Assembly: GCF_003326015.1 (NCBI RefSeq)
Contig: NZ_CP023860.1
Coordinates: 744,001 to 808,000 of the forward strand
Direction: 5' to 3'
DNA: 64,000 nt
From: Candidatus Thioglobus sp. NP1
GTDB taxonomy: Bacteria > Pseudomonadota > Gammaproteobacteria > PS1 > Pseudothioglobaceae
In this document: piece after piece, positions 15,144-29,162 of the stretch
Layout of the letters: every line of letters begins with the position of its first letter
Numbering within the stretch: the first letter of the stretch is position 1
The notes under the pieces: model-generated
Databases searched by the model: none
Seen by the model: the letters and a program-made list of their open reading frames with translations, nothing else
What the model was told of the DNA's origin: nothing
Program-made: the position numbers and the translations under genes

Positions 15144-15998
15144 TTAAATTAGCCAATCCTTTACCTTTATGAAAATTTCAGAGTCTTTACTGGCAAGTCT
15201 CTCAACCACACCAAAGTGATCTACATCAGGCTCTGCATGATAATCAAGAGGAGCATCATGATCTTTCCATTTTTCAACAAATTGATTGGTTTGCCAATGG
15301 AATTCAGGCGTCTCTGCACCACCAAGAGTTACGAGAATTGGAGCATCTGTTTTTGGTTCAAAGAAATGTGGGCTTAATTCAAGGCTTTCATTGTCATCTA
15401 AGCCCAGAGCATCACCAATTGTTGTTTCTCTAATAGGATCAAGTTGATAAAGTCCACTTATTGGTATGCCAGTTTTTACTATATCCTGAGGAAGGTCATT
15501 AGCTATTTTTTGCCAGTCCGTTGCAAGAATCATACCTGTAATATGACCACCAGCTGAGTGACCAGAGACATTAATTCGATTTTTTGAAATTGAGTGCTTA
15601 TCAGCATTTCGCCACAACCAAATGATAGCCTCTTGTATTTTTTCAACAATATTGGTCATGCTTGCATCTGGGCATAGTTGATAACCTATAAGAGCAACAT
15701 CGATTCCTGACTTTACAAATGACTCAGCTACAAAGCTATAGAATGATTTATCACCTCGCTGCCAGTACCCGCCATGAATAAAAATGAATAGGGGGGCATT
15801 ATCTTGTCCACAACGAAAAATATCTAGCTTATCTTTTTCACCACTTCCATATTGACAATCAATTGATGAATCTACAGTAGCTCTGAAAGCTGCACTTCTT
15901 TTAGTCCATTTATTAATAAGTCCATCAAAATCATCAACTAATAATCTGACGTTGTAACCCTTTTCTAATATTGGGTCAATGGGTTTAGTTCTTGTCAT
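15144..15998 (-). CDS. Alpha/beta-hydrolase, arylformamidase/esterase-like
   Basis: A 284-residue alpha/beta hydrolase. The oxyanion motif HGGYWQ (residues 75–80) and nucleophile elbow GHSAGG with Ser148 match the kynurenine formamidase and carboxylesterase groups; a C-terminal DVDHFGVVE near residue 260 supplies the likely catalytic histidine. No signal peptide is seen. No other tryptophan-kynurenine genes are nearby, so a different ester or amide substrate, perhaps a product of the upstream monooxygenase, is plausible (inference). It follows the SnoaL-like gene by 14 bp. Confidence 0.87.
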   Translation of the reverse strand: MTRTKPIDPILEKGYNVRLLVDDFDGLINKWTKRSAAFRATVDSSIDCQYGSGEKDKLDIFRCGQDNAPLFIFIHGGYWQRGDKSFYSFVAESFVKSGIDVALIGYQLCPDASMTNIVEKIQEAIIWLWRNADKHSISKNRINVSGHSAGGHITGMILATDWQKIANDLPQDIVKTGIPISGLYQLDPIRETTIGDALGLDDNESLELSPHFFEPKTDAPILVTLGGAETPEFHWQTNQFVEKWKDHDAPLDYHAEPDVDHFGVVERLASKDSEIFIKVKDWLI

Positions 15999-16012
15999 TT
16001 AAAATCCCTTTT

Positions 16013-16420
16013 TTAGTTAGTTCTATTTTTATAAAAAGTATCTTTGTGGATAATTAGTCCATCACGGAATGTCAAGATATCAATGCTCAAAAAGTCTTGA
16101 ATTTCACCAGATTTGAGTTTTGCAAGTCGATGAAATTCACAATAAGCTTTGTCGCCAGAAATCCGGGTGTCAATTGGGGTCCATTGGACACTCTCAACAT
16201 TATTAAATAGTCCCTCGAATATTTTTCTGATATTATCCAAACCAGAAAACCGAGTACCATTAATATTAGGTCCTGCTGCATGGTCGAATAGTGCATCTTC
16301 TGCAAAAAATGACATTACTTTATCAATATCATTTTGATTGTAGGCATTAGTAATTTTAGCAAGCAGGTCAGAAGTTATTCCTGCCTCTTTTGTTGATGTA
16401 TTTGAATTGGAGATTGACAT
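16013..16420 (-). CDS. SnoaL/NTF2-like small protein
   Basis: A 135-residue protein with the cone-shaped NTF2/SnoaL pattern: an N-terminal helix with AYNQNDIDKVMSFFAEDALFDHA, the loop GTRFSGLDNIRKIFEGLF and three C-terminal strands ending HKDTFYKNR. Such proteins are isomerases, hydrolases or ligand-binding partners of catabolic and polyketide enzymes. It lies between the GST gene (9 bp) and the alpha/beta hydrolase gene (14 bp), so it probably serves the same pathway. Specific activity unknown. Confidence 0.82.
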   Translation of the reverse strand: MSISNSNTSTKEAGITSDLLAKITNAYNQNDIDKVMSFFAEDALFDHAAGPNINGTRFSGLDNIRKIFEGLFNNVESVQWTPIDTRISGDKAYCEFHRLAKLKSGEIQDFLSIDILTFRDGLIIHKDTFYKNRTN

Positions 16421-16429
16421 AAAAGTTAA

Positions 16430-17101
16430 TTATAAATTTTTCTCACCTTTGGTTTGTAATTCCAAGAATTCATCAGGTGAATTACCAAATGGCTGCATTG
16501 CGTGTTCTTTGAAAGGATTTCTCTCGGTTAGTTTTTGATACCATGCTTCGATCCCTGGCATTGTTGGTCTTTTAATATCAAGTACAAAGTACTTATGTAG
16601 TAAAACGCCGAGAGGGATATCACCATATGTGAACTCATCACCAGCAACAAATTTATTATTAGCTAGATGCCCCTCAAGCACTTTCAGTACTTCAGCACTC
16701 TGCTTTGCCATTTCAGTAATTTTGTTATAATCTCTTTGTGATTCCTCAGTTCGAACAAGCTGCCAAAAAACAGGAAAAAAAGTTCCCATAAAGCTATCTG
16801 TAGACCAGGTCATCCATTGATCAGAGATTGCCACCTTTTGAGGATCCTCAGGATAAAGATTACCAAAACCATACTGCCTTGCAAGATAGCGAATTATTGT
16901 ATGTGATTCCCACAATACAAAACCATTATCACGAATAGTAGGAATTTTTGAATTAGGATTAAGGGATTTATAATCATCTGTATCTAGATCACCTGATTCA
17001 GTTCCTATAGAATGCCTTTCATAATCAATATCTAACTCAGAGAGAGTCCAAAGGACCTGTATAACTTGATTAGCATTTTTTCTACCCCAAATTTCTAGCA
17101 T
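16430..17101 (-). CDS. Glutathione S-transferase family protein
   Basis: A 223-residue GST. The N-terminal thioredoxin-like domain begins LEIWGRKNANQVIQVLWTL and includes the cis-proline glutathione-binding segment SKIPTIRDNGFVLWESHTI; residues 85–215 form the all-helical domain. Family roles are conjugation, dehalogenation or ring-opening isomerisation with glutathione. It lies 18 bp after the flavin monooxygenase and 9 bp before the SnoaL-like gene. Its place next to a monooxygenase suggests handling of a reactive oxygenated intermediate (inference). Confidence 0.9.
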   Translation of the reverse strand: MLEIWGRKNANQVIQVLWTLSELDIDYERHSIGTESGDLDTDDYKSLNPNSKIPTIRDNGFVLWESHTIIRYLARQYGFGNLYPEDPQKVAISDQWMTWSTDSFMGTFFPVFWQLVRTEESQRDYNKITEMAKQSAEVLKVLEGHLANNKFVAGDEFTYGDIPLGVLLHKYFVLDIKRPTMPGIEAWYQKLTERNPFKEHAMQPFGNSPDEFLELQTKGEKNL

Positions 17102-17119
17102 TCGTCTTATTTCCTATTC

Positions 17120-18280
17120 TTAAACACCATCTGGATTAAACCTTGGCATAACTCTCTCAGAGAATAGAGCCATGCTTTTGAGTATTTTTTGATAGTCAAA
17201 TCCTGGGAATTGCTGAAGCAACATAATATGATTGAGACCAATTGATTTATTAAGCTTATCAATTTTCTCAGCAACATAGTCTGCATCACCAACCCATATC
17301 AATTCATACTTCATAAGGAAATCAAACCATTCTCCATTGAGGTCTTCATCAGTTGGATTGGCATCATCATCTAGATAGGCTTTTCGGGTCCAACTTCCTT
17401 CTGGCCTAGAGCCACTTAGGTATTCATAATAGCCATTGATTGCAGCTCTAGCATCTTTGTCAGCCTGCTCCATTGTTTCCGCAACATAAATGACAGTGCA
17501 TACTCCAACACCATCTCCTCTTTGGTATTTTGCCCCATCATGTGATTCTGCATTGGCATAAGCATCCCAACAACTTTCAAGTTTCCCTGGAGGGCTTGAC
17601 ATACCAATCACCTTAAAGCCTCTTTCAGCAGCCAATTTATAAGTGTGTGGTGAATTAGACATTAGCCAGACTGGAGGATGAGGATCTTGATAAGGCCGAG
17701 GATGAATATACATGCCAGTATATTCTCCTTTTTCTGAGTGATACTCTTTTTCAAGAGGCATTAAGAAGCGATTTGTTTCCTTCCAACCAGGAACAGGAAA
17801 CTCATAAAATTCACCCTTGTGTGAAAAAGGATCCTTAGTCCATGCTTTTAATATGACCTCAAGGGACTCCATAAATAAACGATAACTCTTTTCATTATCT
17901 CTTCGATCAGCATCTTTGTTAAATTGCAGTGTCACTCTCTCATTAATACCTTTTGCGACACCAAAATCAACTCTTCCCTCAGTCATATTATCAAGAAGTG
18001 CTATATCCTCTGCTACCCTTAATGGATGCCAATCAGGAAGGACAATAGGCGCCTGTCCCACTCTTATTTTTTTTGAGTGAGAGGCTAGATCAAGAGACAT
18101 CATTATTGGGTTTGGAGGAGCATTAAGATAGCCATTATGAGCAAAGTGATGCTCAGTAAGCCAAACGGTTGTAAAATCAGCCTGCTCAGCTAAATTTGTT
18201 TGCTCACGCATCATTTTAACAACCCTATTCCAAGGAATATTTTCTCCTGGATTAAAGAAGGGTACAAAATCAAATCTCAT
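17120..18280 (-). CDS. Flavin-dependent luciferase-like monooxygenase (LLM class)
   Basis: A 386-residue protein of the bacterial luciferase superfamily. It has the N-terminal strand MRFDFVPFFNPG, TTVWLTEHHFAHNGY near residue 38 with the conserved EHH, the VGQAPIVLPDWHPLRVAEDIA segment split over strands 4–5, and RVDFGVAKG. Members use FMNH2 or F420 with oxygen; which cofactor and substrate apply is not readable here. It leads a five-gene minus-strand cluster (GST, SnoaL-like, hydrolase, methyltransferase) with 9–18-bp gaps. Dimethylsulfide monooxygenase is in the same superfamily, but nothing in the sequence identifies that substrate. Confidence 0.88.
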   Translation of the reverse strand: MRFDFVPFFNPGENIPWNRVVKMMREQTNLAEQADFTTVWLTEHHFAHNGYLNAPPNPIMMSLDLASHSKKIRVGQAPIVLPDWHPLRVAEDIALLDNMTEGRVDFGVAKGINERVTLQFNKDADRRDNEKSYRLFMESLEVILKAWTKDPFSHKGEFYEFPVPGWKETNRFLMPLEKEYHSEKGEYTGMYIHPRPYQDPHPPVWLMSNSPHTYKLAAERGFKVIGMSSPPGKLESCWDAYANAESHDGAKYQRGDGVGVCTVIYVAETMEQADKDARAAINGYYEYLSGSRPEGSWTRKAYLDDDANPTDEDLNGEWFDFLMKYELIWVGDADYVAEKIDKLNKSIGLNHIMLLQQFPGFDYQKILKSMALFSERVMPRFNPDGV

Positions 18281-18405: not shown

Positions 18406-19023
18406 ATGAATAAATATTTGAAGATGAAAAGCACTAATATAATTTATCATCAGGCAACAGTCACTCGCCAAAGACGGAATAAATTAAACAATCATCGTTC
18501 AATTGTTCTCTGGTTTACTGGACTTTCTGGATCTGGTAAGTCGACTCTGGCCCACTCATTAGAAGAAAGACTATTTCAAAGGGGTTGTAGCACTTTTGTC
18601 CTAGATGGTGACAATGTTCGTCATGGTTTGAACTCAAACCTTGATTTTAGTGAAGTTGGTAGAACTGAAAATATTCGCAGAATAAGTGAAGTTAGTAAGC
18701 TGATGTTAGAGTCTGGCTTAATTGTAATGACTGCTTTTATAAGTCCATTTAGCAAGGATCGAAATGAAGCAAGAAAATTAATTACAAGTGATGATTTTGT
18801 AGAAATCTACTGCAAAGCTAGTTTGCAAAAATGTGAATCTAGAGATGTTAAAGGTTTATACAAAAGAGCAAGAGCTGGAGAAATTAAAAATTATACGGGT
18901 ATTGACTCTCCATATGAGATTCCCCAAAATCCAGAGTTAATTATTGATACAGAAAATCAAGGCCTAGAGGATTCAGTGTCAACTATTCTAGAATTTTTGG
19001 AATTAAATGGAATAATTAAATAG
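18406..19023 (+). CDS. cysC: Adenylyl-sulfate (APS) kinase
   Basis: A 205-residue APS kinase that phosphorylates APS to PAPS. Walker A is GLSGSGKST (residues 39–47); [10 protein letters not shown], the serine motif FISPF with Ser113, and [18 protein letters not shown] complete the active site. A second ATG at residue 7 could be the real start and would also keep the whole kinase. cysD/cysN are not beside it. The gene is convergent with, and 5 bp from, the TPR-sulfotransferase gene, so PAPS supply for neighbouring sulfotransferases is an attractive role (inference). Confidence 0.95.
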
Positions 19024-19028
19024 CTAAA

Positions 19029-20855
19029 CTACTTTTTCAAGTATGGCTCTAGTCCATGTATTAGAGGTTTAATATGACCTGCATATTTTCTCCAAGCATC
19101 TGAGCTTCCTTGGTACATTTTTTCCCTAACTTGCATAGAACTAGCCGTTTTGACAGCTCGTTTATTTTTATGAAAATTAAGGCATTTCTCATCCCAATCT
19201 AACTCACAATACTCCAATAAGTTTCTAGTCTCATATTCTTGGTTAGTTGTTAAGTCTTCATAGCAAATATCATAAATTTTTCCTGGGAACTTTTCATGCC
19301 AAAAATTCATCAACTTAGAGTACAAGCCGTAATAACCAACTAAATCATCCATATTGTAAGAAAATCCATAGCCATTTCCACTCCATTTAGACTTATAAAT
19401 TGACCAACATGTTGCTCTAGGATCCCTTTTTAGATGAATAATTTTTGCATTAGGAAATATGGAAAGAATAATCCCTATATATTGGAAATTTGCTGGTGTT
19501 TTATCCGAGATGATACTCTCAGAAGTATTTAATTGATTAAGAGAATCTAAGTATTTTTCTCGAATTAGTATAAGATCTTTTTCAGAATAAGTATTTGTAT
19601 GTTTTTCATTAGAAAGTTTACCCTCTATTAAAGGAAGGCAAAGCTTCATCAAAATGCTTAACTCACCTCCACCATAAACAGCTTGATGGCTGGAAAGAAT
19701 CTGCTCAACCAGACTTGTTCCAGAGCGGGGCATACCAAGAATAAATAGAGGACTTTTATTTGATGTATCATTATTTTTCAAGGACTTTTTAATAGAATTA
19801 GGTCTTTCAGCAAATATTTTATAAATAATTGAAATTATTTTCTTAGAGGTATTGAATGAATAATTTAGGTCTATTTTTCGTATTCGATTACCCTCATTAA
19901 GGTAATTAAAAAACATGTCATTATTTCCTGAATTTTCGTTAACAGCTGCTAATGCAAAGTTTATAGCTACTAAGTTAGATTGATCCATGTCATCAGTCTG
20001 AAGAATTGATTGCATATTTTTAATCTGCTTTTCACTAAAAGAATAATTATTAAATTGACTTAAATTATAGTAAGCATTTGCATAATTTGGATCTACTGAT
20101 AAAGCCTTTTCAAAAGATCTAATTGAGCTATCAGTTTTATTTAACTCTTTCTCAGTAAGACCAATATTATTATGAGCATCAGCTAGCTTTGGATTAATTG
20201 CCAGTGATTTTTCATAATATTCGATAGCTTTTTCAAGATCACCAGTATTCTGAAAAATACCACCACGATGATTAGCAGCTTCAGCATAACCAGGATTAAT
20301 GGCTAATGCTTTGTCAAAGTTTTTACCAGCCTCAAAGTCATTTTCAAGACTTTTATATGCAAGTCCTAAATTATTATATGCTTGCGAGAATTTAGGATTA
20401 ATGGCTACTGCAAAACTAAAATGTATAATAGCATCATCGTATTTCTTCAAGGTTATAAGAGCATTGCCGAGATTGTAATGAGCATTTGGATAAGCATGCT
20501 TTAAAAGAATGGCATTCTTGTAACATGAAATAGCTTCTTCTATTTTGCCAAGTTCACGTAGAGTAACACCTAGATTATAATGAACTTCTGAATACTCTGG
20601 TTGAAGGGTTAGTGCTTTCTCAAATTTTTTAACAGCTAAATCAAGTTGACCAGTGGATTGATAAAAAGAGCCGCAAACATTGAATAGTAATGCCTCTAAA
20701 GGAAAGTCTTTAGTTAGGATTTCTATTGCAATAATTGCCTCTTTTTTTTGTCCATTTGAAAAGCTATCAATAATGGATTGAATAACTTCTCTAGGAGGGC
20801 CTTGTTGATTTTTGGCGTGTTGTAAACTAACAGATCTTTTTTTTTGTTTCTTCAT
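19029..20855 (-). CDS. TPR protein with C-terminal sulfotransferase domain (608 aa)
   Basis: Residues ~50–265 carry about six TPR units; residues ~370–600 form a sulfotransferase domain. The PAPS 5'-phosphosulfate loop is GMPRSGTS (374–381), and the 3'-phosphate site is LKRDPRATCWSIY near 475–487. The C-terminus has the SMQVREKMYQGSSDAWRKY segment also found in the 691-residue relative encoded at 26376–28451. It likely transfers sulfate from PAPS to a hydroxyl on a protein or glycan held by the TPRs. It is the last gene of the TPR run, separated by 114 bp from the nucleotidyltransferase gene, and faces cysC. No signal peptide, so cytoplasmic. Confidence 0.88.
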   Translation of the reverse strand: MKKQKKRSVSLQHAKNQQGPPREVIQSIIDSFSNGQKKEAIIAIEILTKDFPLEALLFNVCGSFYQSTGQLDLAVKKFEKALTLQPEYSEVHYNLGVTLRELGKIEEAISCYKNAILLKHAYPNAHYNLGNALITLKKYDDAIIHFSFAVAINPKFSQAYNNLGLAYKSLENDFEAGKNFDKALAINPGYAEAANHRGGIFQNTGDLEKAIEYYEKSLAINPKLADAHNNIGLTEKELNKTDSSIRSFEKALSVDPNYANAYYNLSQFNNYSFSEKQIKNMQSILQTDDMDQSNLVAINFALAAVNENSGNNDMFFNYLNEGNRIRKIDLNYSFNTSKKIISIIYKIFAERPNSIKKSLKNNDTSNKSPLFILGMPRSGTSLVEQILSSHQAVYGGGELSILMKLCLPLIEGKLSNEKHTNTYSEKDLILIREKYLDSLNQLNTSESIISDKTPANFQYIGIILSIFPNAKIIHLKRDPRATCWSIYKSKWSGNGYGFSYNMDDLVGYYGLYSKLMNFWHEKFPGKIYDICYEDLTTNQEYETRNLLEYCELDWDEKCLNFHKNKRAVKTASSMQVREKMYQGSSDAWRKYAGHIKPLIHGLEPYLKK

Positions 20856-20944
20856 TTTGAGTATTGCTGAGGTCTGAAAAAAAATTAAACTTTAATTATT
20901 ACAGGTTAGCAATTAAACAGTCTCAGTTTAAATGAAACCAAATG

Positions 20945-20950
20945 ATTATA
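20945..20950 (-). promoter_or_regulatory. Possible -10 element for the 608-aa TPR-sulfotransferase gene
   Basis: A perfect TATAAT on the minus strand lies 90 bp upstream of the start at 20855, inside the 114-bp gap after the nucleotidyltransferase gene. The -35 position offers only a weak match (TTAATC). It could give this last gene its own promoter, but read-through from upstream is equally possible. Confidence 0.3.
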
Positions 20951-20969
20951 ATATAATTAAGGTGCGGGA

Positions 20970-21704
20970 TTAACTATCATAATTTTTAGAAAGTAGTTTC
21001 CCTACTTCTTCCCATGTCCCTAAATCTTTATATTCCTCTACTAAAATAACCTTGCTGCCAAATATATTTGTTTCTTCAATGACAATATTGGGTTTTTTGA
21101 GCTTCAAGGTGCTTTGTTCCATAAATGAGATGCACTCATCAAAAACTTCTTTTTTAAAAGCAAAAGCACACCAGTATCCATTAAATCTATCCATATTTTG
21201 TGAGGGCTTATCCTCATAATCTATCACTCTATTATTTTTATCTAGCTGCAAGCACCCTTTAGTATTAAGCATTTTTTCGTTTGATTCTGGCTTAAATAGG
21301 AAAGAAAATCCCTTCTCCCTTAAATTTTCTTGAAGCTCGCTGATTAGATCAACACCATCTGATAATTCTAAGATCGTGTCAGGTAGAAGTACAATATTAT
21401 TTTCTCCAAAAAGATGCTTTGCGCTTTTAATCGCACCAGTGTATTCAATCTCATTCGGGTTTTGATATGTAAAACTGATATTATATTGAGATTTATATTT
21501 TGATAAATACTTAATGATTTCTGTTTTTTCTTCGCTTATAACAACTATAAATTCTACATTCTCACGATTCAATTTACTAAAGAGGTCAAAGCTATTATCA
21601 ATCAAAGCCTTTTCTTTGTCGACCCTTAATATCTCTTTTGGATATGGCAAATTAAGTCTGGAGCCCTTACCAGCTGCAGGAAGGATAACTGTTAGCTTAT
21701 TCAT
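20970..21704 (-). CDS. Sugar-phosphate nucleotidyltransferase family protein
   Basis: A 244-residue GT-A-fold nucleotidyltransferase. The N-terminal LPAAGKGSRL (residues 8–17) and PKE (22–24) are the nucleotide-binding signature, with LPD (107–109) as the metal-binding aspartate. It resembles glucose-1-phosphate thymidylyl/uridylyltransferases but is shorter, so the nucleotide and sugar are uncertain. Its start overlaps the end of the upstream TPR-glycosyltransferase gene by 4 bp, a sign of translational coupling. It may make the activated sugar used by the two OGT-type enzymes (inference). Confidence 0.85.
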   Translation of the reverse strand: MNKLTVILPAAGKGSRLNLPYPKEILRVDKEKALIDNSFDLFSKLNRENVEFIVVISEEKTEIIKYLSKYKSQYNISFTYQNPNEIEYTGAIKSAKHLFGENNIVLLPDTILELSDGVDLISELQENLREKGFSFLFKPESNEKMLNTKGCLQLDKNNRVIDYEDKPSQNMDRFNGYWCAFAFKKEVFDECISFMEQSTLKLKKPNIVIEETNIFGSKVILVEEYKDLGTWEEVGKLLSKNYDS

Positions 21705-23884
21705 AATACTTCAAACTCTTGTGGTGGAAGTCCATTTGTGTATCTTTCAAAAGCCTGAGTATAGGCTTTTTCTAAATTCTTTGTATAAGTTTTAGTATCA
21801 AATAGAGGTGCTGTAGTTCTTTTATCAGCTAATTTCTTTTTGATTGTTGCAAGCTTTTCAGGATTGCTAGCTAAGTTAAGTGCCAACGCTTCATACTCCT
21901 TTTCTGAATTTGTAATAAGCTCAGGTACTTCAAGAGAAGTAAGAAGACTGCCAGCAACTCTAGCTGCAAATCCTTTTCCAATTTTTGTCAAAACCGGTAA
22001 GCCGGCCCATAAAGCATCACTTGCTGTTGTATGCGCATTAAAATTAAAAGTATCTAAAAACAAATCAGCTAGTCTCTGTCTGGCTAAATGCTCTTCAACT
22101 GCTATCTTATCGGCAAAAATTAAACGATTAGGCTCAACACCACGTTTTTTTGCTTCACTCTTTAAATTATCCTCAGACGATTTATTTGATTTTATAAGCC
22201 ACAGGACACTCCCATCAATCTTGCTGAGTAGCCGCATCCAAATATCAAATTCTTTTGGAGTGATTTTGAAACTATGATTAAAGCAACAAAAAACAAAACC
22301 ATCTTCCGGTAAATTACACTCTTGTCGAGTTATTAATTTGTTAGAAATCTGTCTGGAGCTGTCTTGAGGCATATAACAACTTGGTAAATAAATAATATTT
22401 TCAGAATAATTCCTTTTTTGTTCTTCTGGAATTATGATTTTATCAGCTATTATATAATCATAAAAATCAGCCCCCATAGTGCCTGGGTATGCTAAATAAT
22501 TTATCTGAATTGGAGCTGGATGATAGGCTAGTATACCAACTCTCTCATCTTTCATGAATCCATTAAATTCAATCGCAATATCAATTTCAAGTTCCAAAGC
22601 TAAGTTAGCAATCTCCTTATCTGACATATGAGAAACATTTATGAAATGATTAAAAGTGGAAGTAATCCTTTGATTATATTTATCCTGAATATTCGGGCCA
22701 TAATGGAAGGCATAAGTTTCAAAATTTTCCTTATCTGCTAACTCCAACATCTCGATGCTTAGCATTGATACTGGGTGTTGTCTAAAATAGCTTGAAAAAT
22801 AACCAACCTTAATGTGATTAGATTTCTTAATAGGTCTAGAATTAAATATAGGTCTGAATTTGTAGTCACTTTTTACTAATTCAGTTGATCTTCTATGATG
22901 CATTGAGGGATTATCATCTAAGGATAAAAGTCCATAAACTGATAAATTTCCCTCAAGTAAACCTATAGATAGATTTTTTTCTAAGGTTTTGGCGTATGAC
23001 CAGTCTGACATTACTATTGCTAAATAGTGAGCTTGAGATAAGGCTGGAGCATTTTTAGGTTTTATCTTTAGAGCCTTTTTATAACTTGCAATAGCATCTT
23101 CTAAATCACCTTTCCCCTTTAGTGAAACTCCTATTTGGTAATAAGCTTCGGCATAATCAGGTTTTATCTTTAAAGCCTCCTTATAACTTACAATAGCTTC
23201 TTCTAAGTCACCAACGTCATTTAGGGCAATACCCATATTAAAATAAGCATCATAAGATTTGGGCTCTATATTTAAGGAACTTTTATAACTTTCAATAGCT
23301 GCCTCTAAATCACCAACATCTTTTAATGCAATACCCAAATTGTAATATGCATCAGCATAGTTAGGTTTTATCTTTAGAGCCTTTTTATAACTTTCAATGG
23401 CTAACTCTAAATCATCTTGATTCTTTAAAATATTACCAATATTGAAATAAGCCTCAGCATAATCAGGATTTATCTTTAAAGCCTCTTTATAACTATCAAT
23501 AGCAGATTCTAAATCACCTCGATTTTTTAAGACATTTCCAATATTGTAATGAGCAGCTGCATAGTTAGGTTTAATCTTTAAAGCCTCTTTATAACTTTCA
23601 ATAGCTGATTCTAAATCACCTTTATCTTTAAATGCAATACCCATATTGTAATAAGCATCAGCATAGTCAGGTTTAATTCTTAAAGCCTCTCGATAACTAG
23701 TAATGGCGGCATCAAATTCCATTAAACCCGCATTACAAGCTCCAGAAATATTATGAAGGACGATTGAGTATGGAAATTTTTCCAGTATTTTATTAGAGTC
23801 AGAGAGAGCTTTATTTAATTTTCCTTTATTAAAGTTATCAATGATGGGCTCCAAAAATTCATGAGGAGGATCTTGATTTTTCAT
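21701..23884 (-). CDS. TPR protein with OGT/SPINDLY-type glycosyltransferase domain (727 aa)
   Basis: Residues ~25–285 contain eight or so TPRs of 34 residues, unusually alike (YKEALKIKPDYA-type units). The catalytic GT41 region runs from GYFSSYF near 361 to the end, with the YPGTMGADFYDY segment near 466 and the UDP-binding-lobe motif FNAHTTASDALWAGLPVLT. Bacterial and eukaryotic relatives move a sugar from a nucleotide sugar to Ser/Thr of proteins. One N-lobe motif reads EFNGFM where the 831-residue paralogue has DLGGFT. From about residue 455 the sequence is almost identical to that paralogue. It overlaps both neighbours by 4 bp. Cytoplasmic; donor sugar unknown. Confidence 0.88.
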   Translation of the reverse strand: MKNQDPPHEFLEPIIDNFNKGKLNKALSDSNKILEKFPYSIVLHNISGACNAGLMEFDAAITSYREALRIKPDYADAYYNMGIAFKDKGDLESAIESYKEALKIKPNYAAAHYNIGNVLKNRGDLESAIDSYKEALKINPDYAEAYFNIGNILKNQDDLELAIESYKKALKIKPNYADAYYNLGIALKDVGDLEAAIESYKSSLNIEPKSYDAYFNMGIALNDVGDLEEAIVSYKEALKIKPDYAEAYYQIGVSLKGKGDLEDAIASYKKALKIKPKNAPALSQAHYLAIVMSDWSYAKTLEKNLSIGLLEGNLSVYGLLSLDDNPSMHHRRSTELVKSDYKFRPIFNSRPIKKSNHIKVGYFSSYFRQHPVSMLSIEMLELADKENFETYAFHYGPNIQDKYNQRITSTFNHFINVSHMSDKEIANLALELEIDIAIEFNGFMKDERVGILAYHPAPIQINYLAYPGTMGADFYDYIIADKIIIPEEQKRNYSENIIYLPSCYMPQDSSRQISNKLITRQECNLPEDGFVFCCFNHSFKITPKEFDIWMRLLSKIDGSVLWLIKSNKSSEDNLKSEAKKRGVEPNRLIFADKIAVEEHLARQRLADLFLDTFNFNAHTTASDALWAGLPVLTKIGKGFAARVAGSLLTSLEVPELITNSEKEYEALALNLASNPEKLATIKKKLADKRTTAPLFDTKTYTKNLEKAYTQAFERYTNGLPPQEFEVL
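21706..22520 (-). repeat. Near-identical direct repeat, copy A (C-lobe of 727-aa glycosyltransferase)
   Basis: This 815-bp stretch matches 23883–24697 at a constant offset of 2177 bp with no indel. Positions 21706–22188 are identical to their partner (483 bp read base by base); about a dozen substitutions lie in the remaining part. Beyond 22520 the two genes diverge at once. Confidence 0.95.
23059..23695 (-). repeat. Tandem 102-bp DNA repeats encoding TPR units
   Basis: Within the 727-residue protein gene, units of 102 bp repeat about six times with strong DNA-level similarity, for example recurring TTATAACTTTCAATAGC and CTAAATCACC blocks read on the plus strand. Each unit encodes one 34-residue TPR. 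Units are more alike than in the other TPR genes here, suggesting recent expansion or homogenisation. Confidence 0.85.
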
Positions 23885-26376
23885 ACTTCAAACTCTTGTG
23901 GTGGAAGTCCATTTGTGTATCTTTCAAAAGCCTGAGTATAGGCTTTTTCTAAATTCTTTGTATAAGTTTTAGTATCAAATAGAGGTGCTGTAGTTCTTTT
24001 ATCAGCTAATTTCTTTTTGATTGTTGCAAGCTTTTCAGGATTGCTAGCTAAGTTAAGTGCCAACGCTTCATACTCCTTTTCTGAATTTGTAATAAGCTCA
24101 GGTACTTCAAGAGAAGTAAGAAGACTGCCAGCAACTCTAGCTGCAAATCCTTTTCCAATTTTTGTCAAAACCGGTAAGCCGGCCCATAAAGCATCACTTG
24201 CTGTTGTATGCGCATTAAAATTAAAAGTATCTAAAAACAAATCAGCTAGTCTCTGTCTGGCTAAATGCTCTTCAACTGCTATCTTATCGGCAAAAATTAA
24301 ACGATTAGGCTCAACACCACGTTTTTTTGCTTCACTCTTTAAATTATCCTCAGACGATTTATTTGCTTTTAAGAGCCACAGGACACTCCCATCAATCTTG
24401 CTGAGTAGCCGCATCCAAATATCAAATTCTTTTGGAGTGATTTTGAAACTATTATTGAAACTACAAAAAACAAAACCATCTTCCGGTAAATTACACTCTT
24501 GTCGAGTTATTAATTTGTTAGAAATCTGTCTGGAGCTGTCTTGAGGCATGTAACAACTTGGTAAATAAATAATATTTTCAGAATAATTCCTTTTTTGTTC
24601 TTCTGGAATTATGATTTTATCAGCTATTATATAATCATAAAAATCAGCCCCCATAGTGCCTGGGTATCCTAAATAGTTTATTTGAATTGGAGCTGGATTA
24701 ACAGCGAAAATTTCTGCTTTATTATTTGCTGTAAAGCCTCCTAAATCAATTGCAATATCAATCTCTAAAGATCTTGATAATAATGCTATGTCATTATTTG
24801 ACATCTTTTCAACATTATAAAACTTATCAACTCCTGCCTTAATTCTAAGATTCATTTCATCTTGAGTATTTGGTCCAAAAGAAAATGCAAATATTTCAAA
24901 GTGGCTCCTATCATGAAGTTCATAAAGTTTAGCTGACAAAAAAGACACAGGATGTTCTCTAAAGTCTGCAGAAAAATAACCTATCCTAATTTTTTTATGA
25001 TTTAAATAGCTATTTTTTTTAGAGAGGGCATTATTCTTTGAGGTTATTTCTTTGGAAAAAATTTTTGCATTTTTAAGCTGAATCTTTGCATCATCAATTA
25101 AGGCAGACAAACTAAATGGGTCAATAGTCAGCTCACTATTATTAATTCTGTTATGTATTTCTTTAAGATTTATAGAAAAATTATCCCAATTACATAAGTG
25201 CATTTTGCAATGAAATAAATTTCCAAAATTAAAATCAATTCCAGGCTTTAATTTAATTGCATACTCATAATTCGAAACTGCTTCATCCATTTCATTGAGA
25301 TCCCATTGAAGATTTCCAAGATTAAAGTAAACTTCTGCATATTCTGGATTAATAGAAATTGCTTTTTTGTAACATTTGAGTGCTTTTTCAAATTGACCAG
25401 TTTTGTTTAGAACAATTCCCATACCATTAATAAACTGACTATTATTTGAATCTATAGATATGGCTTTTTCATAGCTTTCAATGGACGCATTAAATTGGCC
25501 TAAGTCATATGAAATATTACCAAGCTCATAATGCACCTCAGCTTTATCTGGTTCAATTATGAGCGCCATTTGATAACATTTAACTGCTTTATCAAATTGA
25601 CCTAGATCTTGTAAGATATTGCCACTTGCATAATGTGGTTCAGCATAATGTGGATTCATGGCTATTGCGTTTTTATAACAATCTAGTGATTTATCAGATT
25701 GATTTAGTTCTTTATAGGCATGACCAAGATTATAAAATGCTTCTGCAAATTCTGGAGAGATTCTCACAGCCTCTTTCAAGTGTTTTAGGGCAGAATCAAT
25801 ATCATCTATTCGAAGATATAGAACTGCTAAATTATTATGTAATTCTGCAAAATCTGGCTTAATCAACAGAACAACCTCATAATGTCTAATTGCTGATGTA
25901 ATATTATTAAGATCTTGGAATATTTCACCTAAGCTGAAATGAGCTTCAAAATAACTTGGTTTTATTTCTATCGCTTTCTCAAAACTCTTAATTGCATTAT
26001 CAAAATGACCAAGCTCTTTAAAAACGTTTCCAATATTGTTATTTGCTTCTGCGTAATCAGGTTTTATAGAGAGAGCTTTTTCAAAACTCTCAATAGAGGC
26101 ATCCAGCATACCTAGCTCATGAAATAAGCCTCCAAGATTATAATGGGCCTTGTAAAAACTGGGATTAATAGCTATTGCCTTTTGATAATTTTCAACAGCA
26201 GTATCAAGTTGACCAAGACCCTGATAGCATGCGCCCCTTAAATTAAAAAGTAAAGACTCACGAGGAAATTTATGGCATAAGACAGCAGTTTTCTCTAATG
26301 CTTCTTTAAACTTCCCAATTGAAAGAATTGAAACAATAGAATTAATTTGTTCTTCCGAAGGGCCTATATTTGTCAT
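23881..26376 (-). CDS. TPR protein with OGT/SPINDLY-type glycosyltransferase domain (831 aa)
   Basis: Residues ~25–385 hold about ten TPR units; a linker follows, and the GT41 catalytic region begins at GYFSADFREHPVS near residue 466. IDLGGFT, YLGYPGTMGADF, FCSFNNSFKITP and FNAHTTASDALWAGLPVLT match the canonical OGT motifs, so activity is expected. The last ~270 residues are nearly identical to the 727-residue paralogue downstream, while the TPRs and N-lobe differ. The start overlaps the stop of the 691-residue TPR-sulfotransferase gene by 1 bp, and the stop overlaps the next gene by 4 bp. Probably cytoplasmic, with a protein acceptor. Confidence 0.9.
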   Translation of the reverse strand: MTNIGPSEEQINSIVSILSIGKFKEALEKTAVLCHKFPRESLLFNLRGACYQGLGQLDTAVENYQKAIAINPSFYKAHYNLGGLFHELGMLDASIESFEKALSIKPDYAEANNNIGNVFKELGHFDNAIKSFEKAIEIKPSYFEAHFSLGEIFQDLNNITSAIRHYEVVLLIKPDFAELHNNLAVLYLRIDDIDSALKHLKEAVRISPEFAEAFYNLGHAYKELNQSDKSLDCYKNAIAMNPHYAEPHYASGNILQDLGQFDKAVKCYQMALIIEPDKAEVHYELGNISYDLGQFNASIESYEKAISIDSNNSQFINGMGIVLNKTGQFEKALKCYKKAISINPEYAEVYFNLGNLQWDLNEMDEAVSNYEYAIKLKPGIDFNFGNLFHCKMHLCNWDNFSINLKEIHNRINNSELTIDPFSLSALIDDAKIQLKNAKIFSKEITSKNNALSKKNSYLNHKKIRIGYFSADFREHPVSFLSAKLYELHDRSHFEIFAFSFGPNTQDEMNLRIKAGVDKFYNVEKMSNNDIALLSRSLEIDIAIDLGGFTANNKAEIFAVNPAPIQINYLGYPGTMGADFYDYIIADKIIIPEEQKRNYSENIIYLPSCYMPQDSSRQISNKLITRQECNLPEDGFVFCSFNNSFKITPKEFDIWMRLLSKIDGSVLWLLKANKSSEDNLKSEAKKRGVEPNRLIFADKIAVEEHLARQRLADLFLDTFNFNAHTTASDALWAGLPVLTKIGKGFAARVAGSLLTSLEVPELITNSEKEYEALALNLASNPEKLATIKKKLADKRTTAPLFDTKTYTKNLEKAYTQAFERYTNGLPPQEFEV
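23883..24697 (-). repeat. Near-identical direct repeat, copy B (C-lobe of 831-aa glycosyltransferase)
   Basis: Partner of 21706–22520. The repeat includes the stop region shared by both genes and ends in the codons just before YPGTMGADF on the protein. Its sharp boundary in the middle of the catalytic domain argues for gene conversion rather than simple old duplication. Confidence 0.95.
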
Positions 26377-28451
26377 TAAAGTTTCTCTTGATAATAACCA
26401 ATAGAATTAATAAGAGGTTTTAAATATTCTTCATATTTTTTCCAGGCCTCAGAACTTCCTTGATACATTTTTTCTTTGACTTGTAATGCACTTGCTGTTT
26501 TTGTAGCTTTTGCGTTATTATAAAATTTAAGACAGTTTTCATCCCAATCTAATTCACAATAATCCAGTAGTTTTCTAGTCTCAACCTCTTGATTAGTGGT
26601 CAAGTTTTCATAACTAATATCATATATCTGATTAGGAAATGCGTCATGCCAAAAGGCCATCAATTCTTCATAAGAGAGATAGAATAGCGCTAAATCACTC
26701 ATGCTGTAGGGAAAGCCTAGTGCTCCATTTGGAAAATACCGTTGATATATTGACCAGCAAATTGCCATGGAATCTCGTTTAAGATGGATAATTTTTGCTT
26801 CTGGAAAAGCCTTTAAAATAAACCCTATATTTTCAAAATTTGTAGGCATTTTGTCAGTAATAATGCCCTCAGAAGAATTTATGTTAGATAAATGGTATTG
26901 CGTATATCCTTGGCGTATATTTAAAAAGCTTCTTTCAGAAAGAATATTATTATTAGATAAATAGGCATTAAATATTGGAGTAATAAGATTATCTAAGGTG
27001 GGCAATTCTCCCGCACCCTTGACTTTGTTGTGACTAGAGATAATTTGTTCAACTAGGGAGGTTCCAGAACGAGGCATTCCAACAATAAAAATTGGTCTAA
27101 CAGCGAGAGGCTTATAAGATGATGACTCTTTAATGGCTAATTTAAAAATATTTTTTAATTTAGTATGTTTTTTTAAGTCACTCTCAATTGAATAATTTAA
27201 TTCCTCTTTTCGAAGTTTATTGCCCTCATTTAAGATTTTAAAAAATTCATCTTTCTTCCCTAAATCTTCATATGCTTTTGCTAAGGCAAAGCACAAATTT
27301 ATCCTTTCTGACTTACTAATGGAAGAACTAGAGAGCAGTGATTGTATTTGAATAAGTTGTGTATCCCCCTCTTTAAAGTTTTTTAGTGTTGATAAATTCC
27401 GGTGAATATTAGCGTTTTCAGGTTCTAAAGCTAGAGCATAAACATAGCTATTAAATGCTTCATCTGATTGGCCCATTTCCTGAAGAATAAGTCCTAAATT
27501 TTCATAAACTGCAGCAAAGTCAGGATTAATTGATAATGCCTTTCTATAATAATTGAGAGCTTCCTCGGGTTGACCAAGATCATAGTACAAAATTCCAAGG
27601 TTGAAAAAGACATCAGCAAAGTTTGGATTAATAGTGATTGCATTCATGTAGCTTTTAATAGCTTCATCCAATTTACCAAAAGCCTTGAGAGCAGTGCCAA
27701 GATTATTATGAGCTTCAGCATAATAAGGATTAATAGCTATTGCTCTTTCATAATGCTTAACTGCTTTATCCATTTCACCAAGTTCATTGAGCGTGCTTCC
27801 AAGATTATTGTGAGCTTCTCCATAATCAGGATATATAGCTATCGCTTTCTCATAATGCTTAACTGCTTCATCCAATTGACCTAGATCATTTAGAATATTA
27901 CCAAGATTGTTATGAACCTCAATATGGTTTGGCTCAATTTCTAATGCTTGATTATATGACTTAATAGCCTCATCTAATTTTCCAAGTTCAGTTTGGATAT
28001 TGCCAAGATTATTTAATGCATCTACAAAGTCTGGTTGTAAACTTAATGCTTCTTTATAAGATTTAATTGCATCATTATTCTGCCCAAGCTCATTATAAAT
28101 AATACCAAGGTTGTTATGAGCCTTGGCATAGTCAGATTGAATAGTTAATGTTTCTTGATAACTCTTTACTGCATCATCCAGATGATTTAGCTCTTGGTGA
28201 GTAAGCGCCAGGTTGTAATGAGCATCAGCAAAGTCTGGTTTAAGATTAATAGCACTCTTAAAAGATTGAGCCGCCATTTCTAATTTTCCATTCGCTTTCA
28301 AACATACACCATTAATGTTATAAAGTATTGATTCGTTTGGATTTTGACCTATTAAGATTTCAATAGATTCTAATGCATCTGATATTTGTCCAGAAGAATA
28401 GAGCTCAATAATAGAATTGATTTTATTATTTAAAAGGGGTGTTGAGTTCAT
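26376..28451 (-). CDS. TPR protein with C-terminal sulfotransferase domain (691 aa)
   Basis: Residues ~36–350 carry nine to ten TPR units with the NNLG...LDEAIKSY pattern. The sulfotransferase domain spans ~450–690: PAPS loop GMPRSGTS (459–466), 3'-phosphate motif LKRDSMAICWSIYQRYF near 557–575, and the conserved ALQVKEKMYQGSSEAWKKY near the C-terminus. It is a longer homologue of the 608-residue protein at the other end of the cluster. Start is 9 bp after the 233-residue TPR gene; stop overlaps the next start by 1 bp. It likely uses PAPS on a TPR-bound acceptor; acceptor unknown. Confidence 0.88.
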   Translation of the reverse strand: MNSTPLLNNKINSIIELYSSGQISDALESIEILIGQNPNESILYNINGVCLKANGKLEMAAQSFKSAINLKPDFADAHYNLALTHQELNHLDDAVKSYQETLTIQSDYAKAHNNLGIIYNELGQNNDAIKSYKEALSLQPDFVDALNNLGNIQTELGKLDEAIKSYNQALEIEPNHIEVHNNLGNILNDLGQLDEAVKHYEKAIAIYPDYGEAHNNLGSTLNELGEMDKAVKHYERAIAINPYYAEAHNNLGTALKAFGKLDEAIKSYMNAITINPNFADVFFNLGILYYDLGQPEEALNYYRKALSINPDFAAVYENLGLILQEMGQSDEAFNSYVYALALEPENANIHRNLSTLKNFKEGDTQLIQIQSLLSSSSISKSERINLCFALAKAYEDLGKKDEFFKILNEGNKLRKEELNYSIESDLKKHTKLKNIFKLAIKESSSYKPLAVRPIFIVGMPRSGTSLVEQIISSHNKVKGAGELPTLDNLITPIFNAYLSNNNILSERSFLNIRQGYTQYHLSNINSSEGIITDKMPTNFENIGFILKAFPEAKIIHLKRDSMAICWSIYQRYFPNGALGFPYSMSDLALFYLSYEELMAFWHDAFPNQIYDISYENLTTNQEVETRKLLDYCELDWDENCLKFYNNAKATKTASALQVKEKMYQGSSEAWKKYEEYLKPLINSIGYYQEKL

Positions 28452-28460
28452 ATTGAAACT

Positions 28461-29162
28461 TTACTGAGATCTGAGTTCTTCTAAATTTGCCTTTGCTTGA
28501 TCATTATCAGGTTCGATATCCAAGACCCTTTCAAAACAATAAATAGACTCGTCATTTTGTCCAAGATCTTTGTGAATAAGGCCAAGATTTAAAATTGCCA
28601 TAGTATAACTTTGATTAATTTCAATAGCCTTTTCAAAATTTTTAGTTGCATTACTTATTTGGCCAATACTTTTATTAGCAACTCCAAGGTTATTATGAGC
28701 TTCAAAATAATCATATTTGTATGCTACTGCCCACTCTAAATGCTCAATAGCATCATCATATTGATTTAAATTTAAGAAAGTCACACCAAGTTTGTTATGT
28801 GCTTCAGAATAATTTGGAAGAAGATCAATTGCTTTTTTAAAGCTTGTAACTGCGAGTTCTAGATCACCAGATTCACTTAAAGCAGTTCCATGGTTCATAT
28901 ATGCTTCAGCATAGTCAGGCTTAATTGTGAATGCACTCTCAAAAAACTGTGCAGCAGCACCAAATTGCCCGAGTTGATTGTAACATGCACCAAGTAAGTT
29001 GAATAGAAGAGGTACATTAGGGTAGTCTTCATTTAAAGCTTTAATTGCCTCAATTGCCTCATTAATCTTACCAGTGGCATAAAGATCCATTACCAAATCA
29101 ACTTGCTCTTTCGGGAGTTTAAGTGGAGTATTTGTGATATTTTTTTCTTTTTTATTATTCAT
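28461..29162 (-). CDS. TPR-repeat protein (233 aa)
   Basis: The whole chain after residue ~20 is about six TPR units (YAEAYMNHGTAL, YSEAHNKLGVTF, YFEAHNNLGVAN and so on) with no catalytic domain. It starts the minus-strand TPR operon, 9 bp before the 691-residue protein. It resembles the N-terminal halves of its neighbours and may be a stand-alone adaptor or a relict of a larger enzyme that lost its catalytic part. The 198 bp upstream separates it from divergent rluD and must contain the operon promoter; no convincing -35/-10 pair was found for it. Confidence 0.87.
   Translation of the reverse strand: MNNKKEKNITNTPLKLPKEQVDLVMDLYATGKINEAIEAIKALNEDYPNVPLLFNLLGACYNQLGQFGAAAQFFESAFTIKPDYAEAYMNHGTALSESGDLELAVTSFKKAIDLLPNYSEAHNKLGVTFLNLNQYDDAIEHLEWAVAYKYDYFEAHNNLGVANKSIGQISNATKNFEKAIEINQSYTMAILNLGLIHKDLGQNDESIYCFERVLDIEPDNDQAKANLEELRSQ

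Follow-up and report, generated by a model that had tools for sequence, protein, structure and literature searches.

A genomic island of TPR-fused sulfotransferases, GT41 glycosyltransferases and APS kinase in Candidatus Thioglobus: a candidate protein-modification system

The cytoplasmic enzyme FlmG of Caulobacter combines an N-terminal tetratricopeptide repeat (TPR) domain, which binds the flagellin acceptor, with a C-terminal GT-B glycosyltransferase (PMC7591256). TPRs are also joined to the glycosyltransferase (GT) domain in the GT41 enzymes OGT and SPINDLY (SPY), where the position that sets donor size is Cys917 in OGT, Tyr744 in SPY and Phe in the HMW1C-type glucosyltransferase, and where the nucleotide-phosphate-binding lysine is essential in SPY (K665) (PMC9715652). 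Protein sulfation by the tyrosylprotein sulfotransferases TPST1/2 and by Xanthomonas RaxST depends on 3'-phosphoadenosine 5'-phosphosulfate (PAPS), and an Arg/Ser/Glu scheme has been described for the tyrosylprotein sulfotransferase active site (PMC6637879). Here, we describe a 10.8-kb island within a 64,000-nucleotide stretch of the Candidatus Thioglobus sp. NP1 genome (NZ_CP023860.1, positions 744,001 to 808,000; the whole stretch is hereafter the window) that brings together TPR-fused GT41 glycosyltransferases, TPR-fused sulfotransferases (STs) and cysC, the gene for the kinase that turns adenosine 5'-phosphosulfate (APS) into PAPS. To our knowledge, few cases of protein sulfation in bacteria have been described, RaxST/RaxX among them. 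TPR-GT41 glycosylation, TPST-like sulfation and a dedicated PAPS supply are each known; their combination was not found described in the open-access literature searched, in keeping with an earlier sequence-only reading of this DNA, which knew of no described system of exactly such composition. We give an even chance to the reading that the island is a cytoplasmic protein-modification system, in which TPR-guided enzymes would transfer sugar and sulfate onto the cell's own proteins with PAPS from CysC.

Seven full-length genes span positions 18406-29162 (Table 1), with cysC on the plus strand convergent with six minus-strand genes that encode, in order, a TPR-only protein, TPR-ST_B, TPR-OGT2, TPR-OGT1, a sugar nucleotidyltransferase-like protein (NTase) and, after a 114 bp gap, TPR-ST_A. 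The sequence-only reading had proposed five minus-strand TPR genes, two of them with ST and two with OGT domains, and Pfam searches placed all five exactly where it had. It had also noted that the NTase is coupled to an OGT gene by a 4-bp overlap; this is an ATGA at the OGT1/NTase junction, but the coupling is wider than was noted, with a further ATGA at OGT2/OGT1 and TAATG at ST_B/OGT2, so that ST_B-OGT2-OGT1-NTase form one translationally coupled chain. Scans for promoters and terminators gave chance-level results only. The host genome is a single 1.69 Mb contig with a completeness of 99.9%, and both Glyco_transf_41 and both Sulfotransfer_3 genes of the entire genome fall inside the island; because of this, and because the linkage recurs in congeners, the grouping goes beyond chance.

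Across the genus, for which 29 genomes were surveyed (host included, many incomplete), ST is found in 15/29 and OGT in 10/29, every one of the latter also bearing ST. Fisher tests, which ignore phylogeny and draft incompleteness, associate ST with OGT (10/15 ST-bearing versus 0/14 ST-lacking genomes, p 2e-4) and with cysC (12/15 versus 3/14, p 0.003). CysH/CysD occur in five genomes (G001, G017, G018, G020, G027), none with ST or cysC (exclusion from ST, p 0.017). No genome of the genus thus combines the CysH/CysD type of sulfate assimilation with the cysC/sulfotransferase type.

Positionally, rluD and an LLM-type oxidoreductase gene flank the island in G003, G014, G019 and G026, as in the window, and in G006, G023 and G025 the island adjoins rluD. 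ST is followed by one or more OGTs on the same strand in G003, G006, G019 and G026, with at least two unrelated OGT lineages filling the slot after ST in a GT-domain tree, and in G003, G006 and G019 the OGTs are immediately followed by sugar-nucleotide genes. Those of G006, next to three OGTs, are RmlB, RmlA, RmlC and RmlD, each scoring above its NCBIfam cut-off; those of G003 are RmlB, RmlA, a DegT aminotransferase, an epimerase-like protein and an isomerase, and a set that matches them adjoins an OGT fragment in G004, where the contig ends; and RmlB, RmlA and an aminotransferase adjoin the OGT of G014. Together with the NTase here, these rml and aminotransferase genes lend support to the earlier idea of sugar activation beside the OGTs. 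cysC adjoins ST in five genomes (G008, G010, G023, G025, G028), with a decayed copy in G009, and the cysC-ST neighbourhood twice holds an inositol-phosphatase-family (PAP-phosphatase-like) gene. As a discriminator the family was uninformative, being present in all genomes.

Orthologues of TPR-only, ST_B, ST_A and cysC (64-87%) form a contiguous four-gene block in G025, largely also in G023; ST_A is 69-70% identical in both genomes, ST_B 64% in G025, and the TPR-only protein 65% in both and 44% in G026. In the window, OGT2-OGT1-NTase stands between ST_B and ST_A. The earlier expectation of a five-gene set syntenic with cysC in other genomes thus stands for the ST/OGT/cysC linkage, which recurs in the genus, and not for the NTase: no relative lies in the congener islands, and among 368 other genomes of the class 366 have none and the remaining two give weak matches, so the NTase is accessory, outside any conserved five-gene set.

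Structurally, the closest PDB match of the ST domain by sequence is to tyrosylprotein sulfotransferases (E 1e-5), at only ~17-20% identity. The ST_B domain model (pLDDT 83) matches TPST in Foldseek at 6e-10, and its VIA Z values are 22.5-23.1 for TPST, ~18 (18.1) for the next class, polyketide/olefin-synthase sulfotransferases, and ~14 for heparan 3-O-sulfotransferases, with the TPST fold clearly ahead. Arg461, Glu482, Lys534, Arg559 and Ser567 of ST_B are invariant in 21 homologues and, aligned to tick TPST, keep the positions that we take to be the PAPS-site Arg/Ser and the catalytic Glu/Lys of the TPST family. Intact catalytic residues had been set beforehand as a check on the proposal, and alignments find them retained in both the GT41 and the ST domains. 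The ST domains resemble TPST far more than glycan sulfotransferases, which makes protein a more probable place for the sulfate than sugar; as judged from the modelled fold, the acceptor would most likely be protein side chains. The PAPS-dependent fold and active-site positions are thus like those of TPST1/2 and RaxST (the comparison was made to TPST, not to RaxST itself), whereas fusion to a long TPR domain sets the island enzymes apart.

Both OGT genes match Glyco_transf_41 in two stretches, giving both catalytic halves behind N-terminal TPRs, and the GT domain of OGT2 aligns with insect and human OGT (E 6e-80). Its nucleotide-phosphate-binding lysine (Lys206 of the domain, Lys645 of OGT2) aligns with the OGT lysine and is invariant in 14 genus sequences, and the window OGTs keep the HTT motif, so that architecture, lysine and motif are all shared with OGT/SPINDLY. 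In contrast to the Cys of human OGT and the Tyr of SPY, the donor-size position in both window OGTs is Phe, as in the HMW1C type, and it is Tyr in the congeners aligned. Phe rather than Cys argues against UDP-GlcNAc as donor, and the sugar transferred is probably not GlcNAc. Moreover, a search of the host genome gave nothing strongly RmlB-like (130 bits for its top PF16363 match, versus 309 for the RmlB of G003), and therefore its donor probably differs from that of the rml-bearing congeners. Unlike OGT/SPINDLY, the island OGTs are operonic with sugar-nucleotide genes and sulfotransferases.

The two window OGTs differ in their N-terminal halves and hardly at all in their catalytic ones: over the last 262 codons they share 98.9% nucleotide identity, with 8 differences and a 483-bp exact run, and just upstream identity drops to 53-67%. 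A like pattern is seen in G026 (~400 codons identical), among the three OGTs of G006 and partly in G019 and G004; the OGTs of G003 do not show it. Exact identity in draft genomes may partly be an assembly effect; the host assembly is a single contig in which the two copies can be told apart at 8 sites. Between species, GT domains share only ~60% nucleotide identity, and in trees the OGT GT domains mostly cluster by genome and ST domains by position across species. Uniform GT halves with divergent TPRs suggest one donor and several acceptors, and we read this as gene conversion that may keep one donor specificity per genome while the TPR halves, and with them acceptor choice, diversify. The nearest match of the OGT1 TPR half is a G025 protein with an unrelated C-terminal domain of no assigned family. 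Two TPR proteins (L035:11685-13298, minus strand; L043:5850-7205, plus strand) have a TPR half 55-62% identical to that of OGT1 and a C-terminal domain that Pfam does not recognise, which might be a third modifying activity joined to the same TPR.

Evolutionarily, the search for NTase relatives turned up a single close one (69% identical), in L049, a marine alphaproteobacterial record (Rhodobacteraceae AG-319-F15), where it is likewise ATGA-coupled to its OGT and the pair lies immediately beside a flagellin gene. The GT-domain tree groups the window OGTs with L049 (support 100/98) and keeps them out of the main genus OGT clade (100/99), with bootstrap values not fully settled. From this kinship the OGT-NTase pair looks foreign, a transferred unit. 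No NTase relatives were confirmed in viral contigs or phages, and three weak ones on Streptomyces plasmids had neighbouring genes that did not fix a substrate; a structure model of the NTase was discarded (pLDDT 46). By analogy with FlmG, the L049 relative probably glycosylates flagellin; among the foreign OGT loci L049 alone has flagellin nearby (the other 78 were looked at), and a G066 OGT additionally lies ~3 kb from one. These two regions, L049:5493-11399 and L150:1474-6404 (G066, a gammaproteobacterium), each with a TPR-OGT close to flagellin, are candidate FlmG-like loci. The resemblance to FlmG thus extends to the flagellin adjoining the nearest relative of the window OGTs outside the genus, and it ends with the host: Flagellin_N has no match in the host genome or in any congener, the island is coupled to sulfotransferases and cysC, and its gene content indicates a donor other than nonulosonic acid.

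The sequence-only reading had cysC supplying PAPS to the sulfotransferases, and the sulfur genes of the host agree. CysH and CysD, which belong to the cysDNCH set for assimilatory sulfate reduction, are absent from its genome (a PF01507 search gave one 19-bit match, below cut-off); CysC is therefore left with no visible role except PAPS for the sulfotransferases, and PAPS appears to serve sulfation only in this cell. Enzyme and product, APS kinase and PAPS, are those of standard CysNC/CysH cysteine biosynthesis; the differences lie in the missing CysH and CysD and in a cysC that stands apart from sat and is linked to sulfotransferases. Elsewhere in the host genome (G000:C1:35281-42869; L045:5281-12869), a sulfite-oxidation type module with APS as intermediate runs from sat through a gene for a membrane-like protein to aprB and aprA, and a SulP sulfate permease is encoded close by. 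Within the family sat occurs widely, including in genomes that lack cysC and cysH.

Thus, we posit that APS would be available through Sat-AprBA, whose genes the host carries, and that CysC, a strong family assignment, would convert it to PAPS. Each TPR superhelix may then, by analogy with FlmG, bind an acceptor protein for its C-terminal domain to modify: the TPST-like domains would transfer sulfate from PAPS, most likely to protein as fold and residues suggest, and the GT41 domains, given the residues retained, would transfer a hexose or deoxyhexose of small size, GlcNAc being improbable, from a nucleotide-sugar donor that coupling and adjacency suggest is supplied by adjoining genes (the NTase here, RmlAB(CD)/aminotransferase in congeners). 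ST and OGT may act on the same acceptors, as their coupling and co-occurrence suggest. A fuller version is tentative: that a non-GlcNAc GT41 (using dTDP-L-rhamnose in some species and a UDP-hexose-like donor here) and TPST-like enzymes, both TPR-guided, modify the same protein set, with acceptors evolving through the TPRs while gene conversion keeps the GT halves uniform.

Alternatively, sulfation with CysC and glycosylation with the NTase could be two separate systems with different acceptors that occupy one hot spot for surface modification, the rluD/LLM-oxidoreductase site, as might be expected from the five genus genomes with ST and no OGT, the TPR-only/ST/ST/cysC block without OGT in G025 and G023, the OGT-NTase pair without ST in L049, and the L036 and L038 OGTs without ST nearby. 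We hold this doubtful, since ST_B is start-stop coupled to OGT2, OGT never occurs without ST in the genus genomes, and the ST-then-OGT order recurs with unrelated OGT lineages. The same coupling and co-occurrence would also suit true glyco-sulfation, with OGT glycosylating a protein and ST then sulfating the added sugar, and sulfated glycans are common in marine organisms; however, an ST domain at Z 23 to TPST and only ~14 to heparan sulfotransferases, along with those five OGT-less genomes, makes this unlikely. Of the glyco-sulfation system first proposed, therefore, the OGT-ST-cysC linkage holds, and sulfation of the glycosylated product is the weaker reading next to TPST-like ST domains. 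Least probable, to our mind very unlikely, is a target other than protein, be it a polysaccharide of the cell surface, a lipid or a small molecule. Loci for surface polysaccharides typically hold rml and aminotransferase genes, and the second-best ST fold matches are the polyketide/olefin-synthase enzymes (Z 18), but the scan of island genes recognised no polymerase or flippase and no glycosyltransferase of the ordinary kind. Where the acceptors of GT41 enzymes are known they are proteins, and TPR superhelices of the acceptor type are present in both kinds of catalytic protein here.

Several points weigh against a cytoplasmic protein-modification system, beginning with the simplifications of the co-occurrence tests given above. 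Three ST-bearing draft genomes have no detected cysC, and a common fold with TPST does not establish the acceptor class. ST lies near OGT in only 1/79 OGT loci outside the genus, so the pairing of the two seems peculiar to this group. No acceptor was identified; flagellin and N_methyl (type IV) pilin were searched for and not found in the host genome, and the acceptor must therefore differ from that beside the L049 pair. No RaxX-like peptide and no RaxAB or peptidase-containing ABC exporter was recognised in the island, no genome-wide search having been made.

Table 1 Features of the island, with window positions
Feature	Position	Strand	Evidence
cysC, adenylyl-sulfate kinase (makes PAPS)	18406..19023	+	Pfam APS_kinase 8e-66; TIGR00455 and PRK03846 above cut-off
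TPR-ST_A, TPR and TPST-like sulfotransferase domain	19029..20855	-	Sulfotransfer_3 2e-42
NTase, sugar-1-phosphate nucleotidyltransferase-like	20970..21704	-	NTP_transferase 7.5e-9 (weak); best NCBIfam AglF 44 bits, far below cut-off
TPR-OGT1, TPR and GT41 domain	21701..23884	-	Glyco_transf_41 9e-88
Homogenised GT half of OGT1, codons 466-727	21701..22489	-	near-identical to 23881-24666
TPR-OGT2, TPR and GT41 domain	23881..26376	-	Glyco_transf_41 2e-92; PDB OGT 6e-80
Homogenised GT half of OGT2, codons 571-831	23881..24666	-	near-identical to OGT1 GT half
TPR-ST_B, TPR and TPST-like sulfotransferase domain	26376..28451	-	Sulfotransfer_3 3e-40; domain model pLDDT 83
TPR-only protein, first gene of the minus-strand block	28461..29162	-	Pfam: TPR only

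Next to the island, window positions 15144-18280 hold genes that, by reading of their sequence, we name hydrolase-like, SnoaL/NTF2-like, GST-like and LLM-type oxidoreductase; their counterparts beside congener islands are 78-94% identical. G008 and G028 have a second site elsewhere in the genome (L037:7528-10775; L044:9211-12427), where ST, an inositol-phosphatase-family (PAP-phosphatase-like) gene and cysC form an apparently self-contained sulfation unit. In G009 (L041:9300-12641), frameshifts or stops mark the joint decay of the island's cysC, ST and OGT.

GT41 domains that stand beside varied sugar-nucleotide genes offer a natural set in which the donor specificity of the family becomes directly testable, and the pattern of homogenised GT halves with diverged TPRs offers a clean test of whether TPRs set acceptor choice. 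For the organisms themselves, that small-genome marine bacteria without CysH keep a PAPS-making gene suggests that sulfated products matter to them, perhaps, as we speculate, in the evasion of phages or predators.

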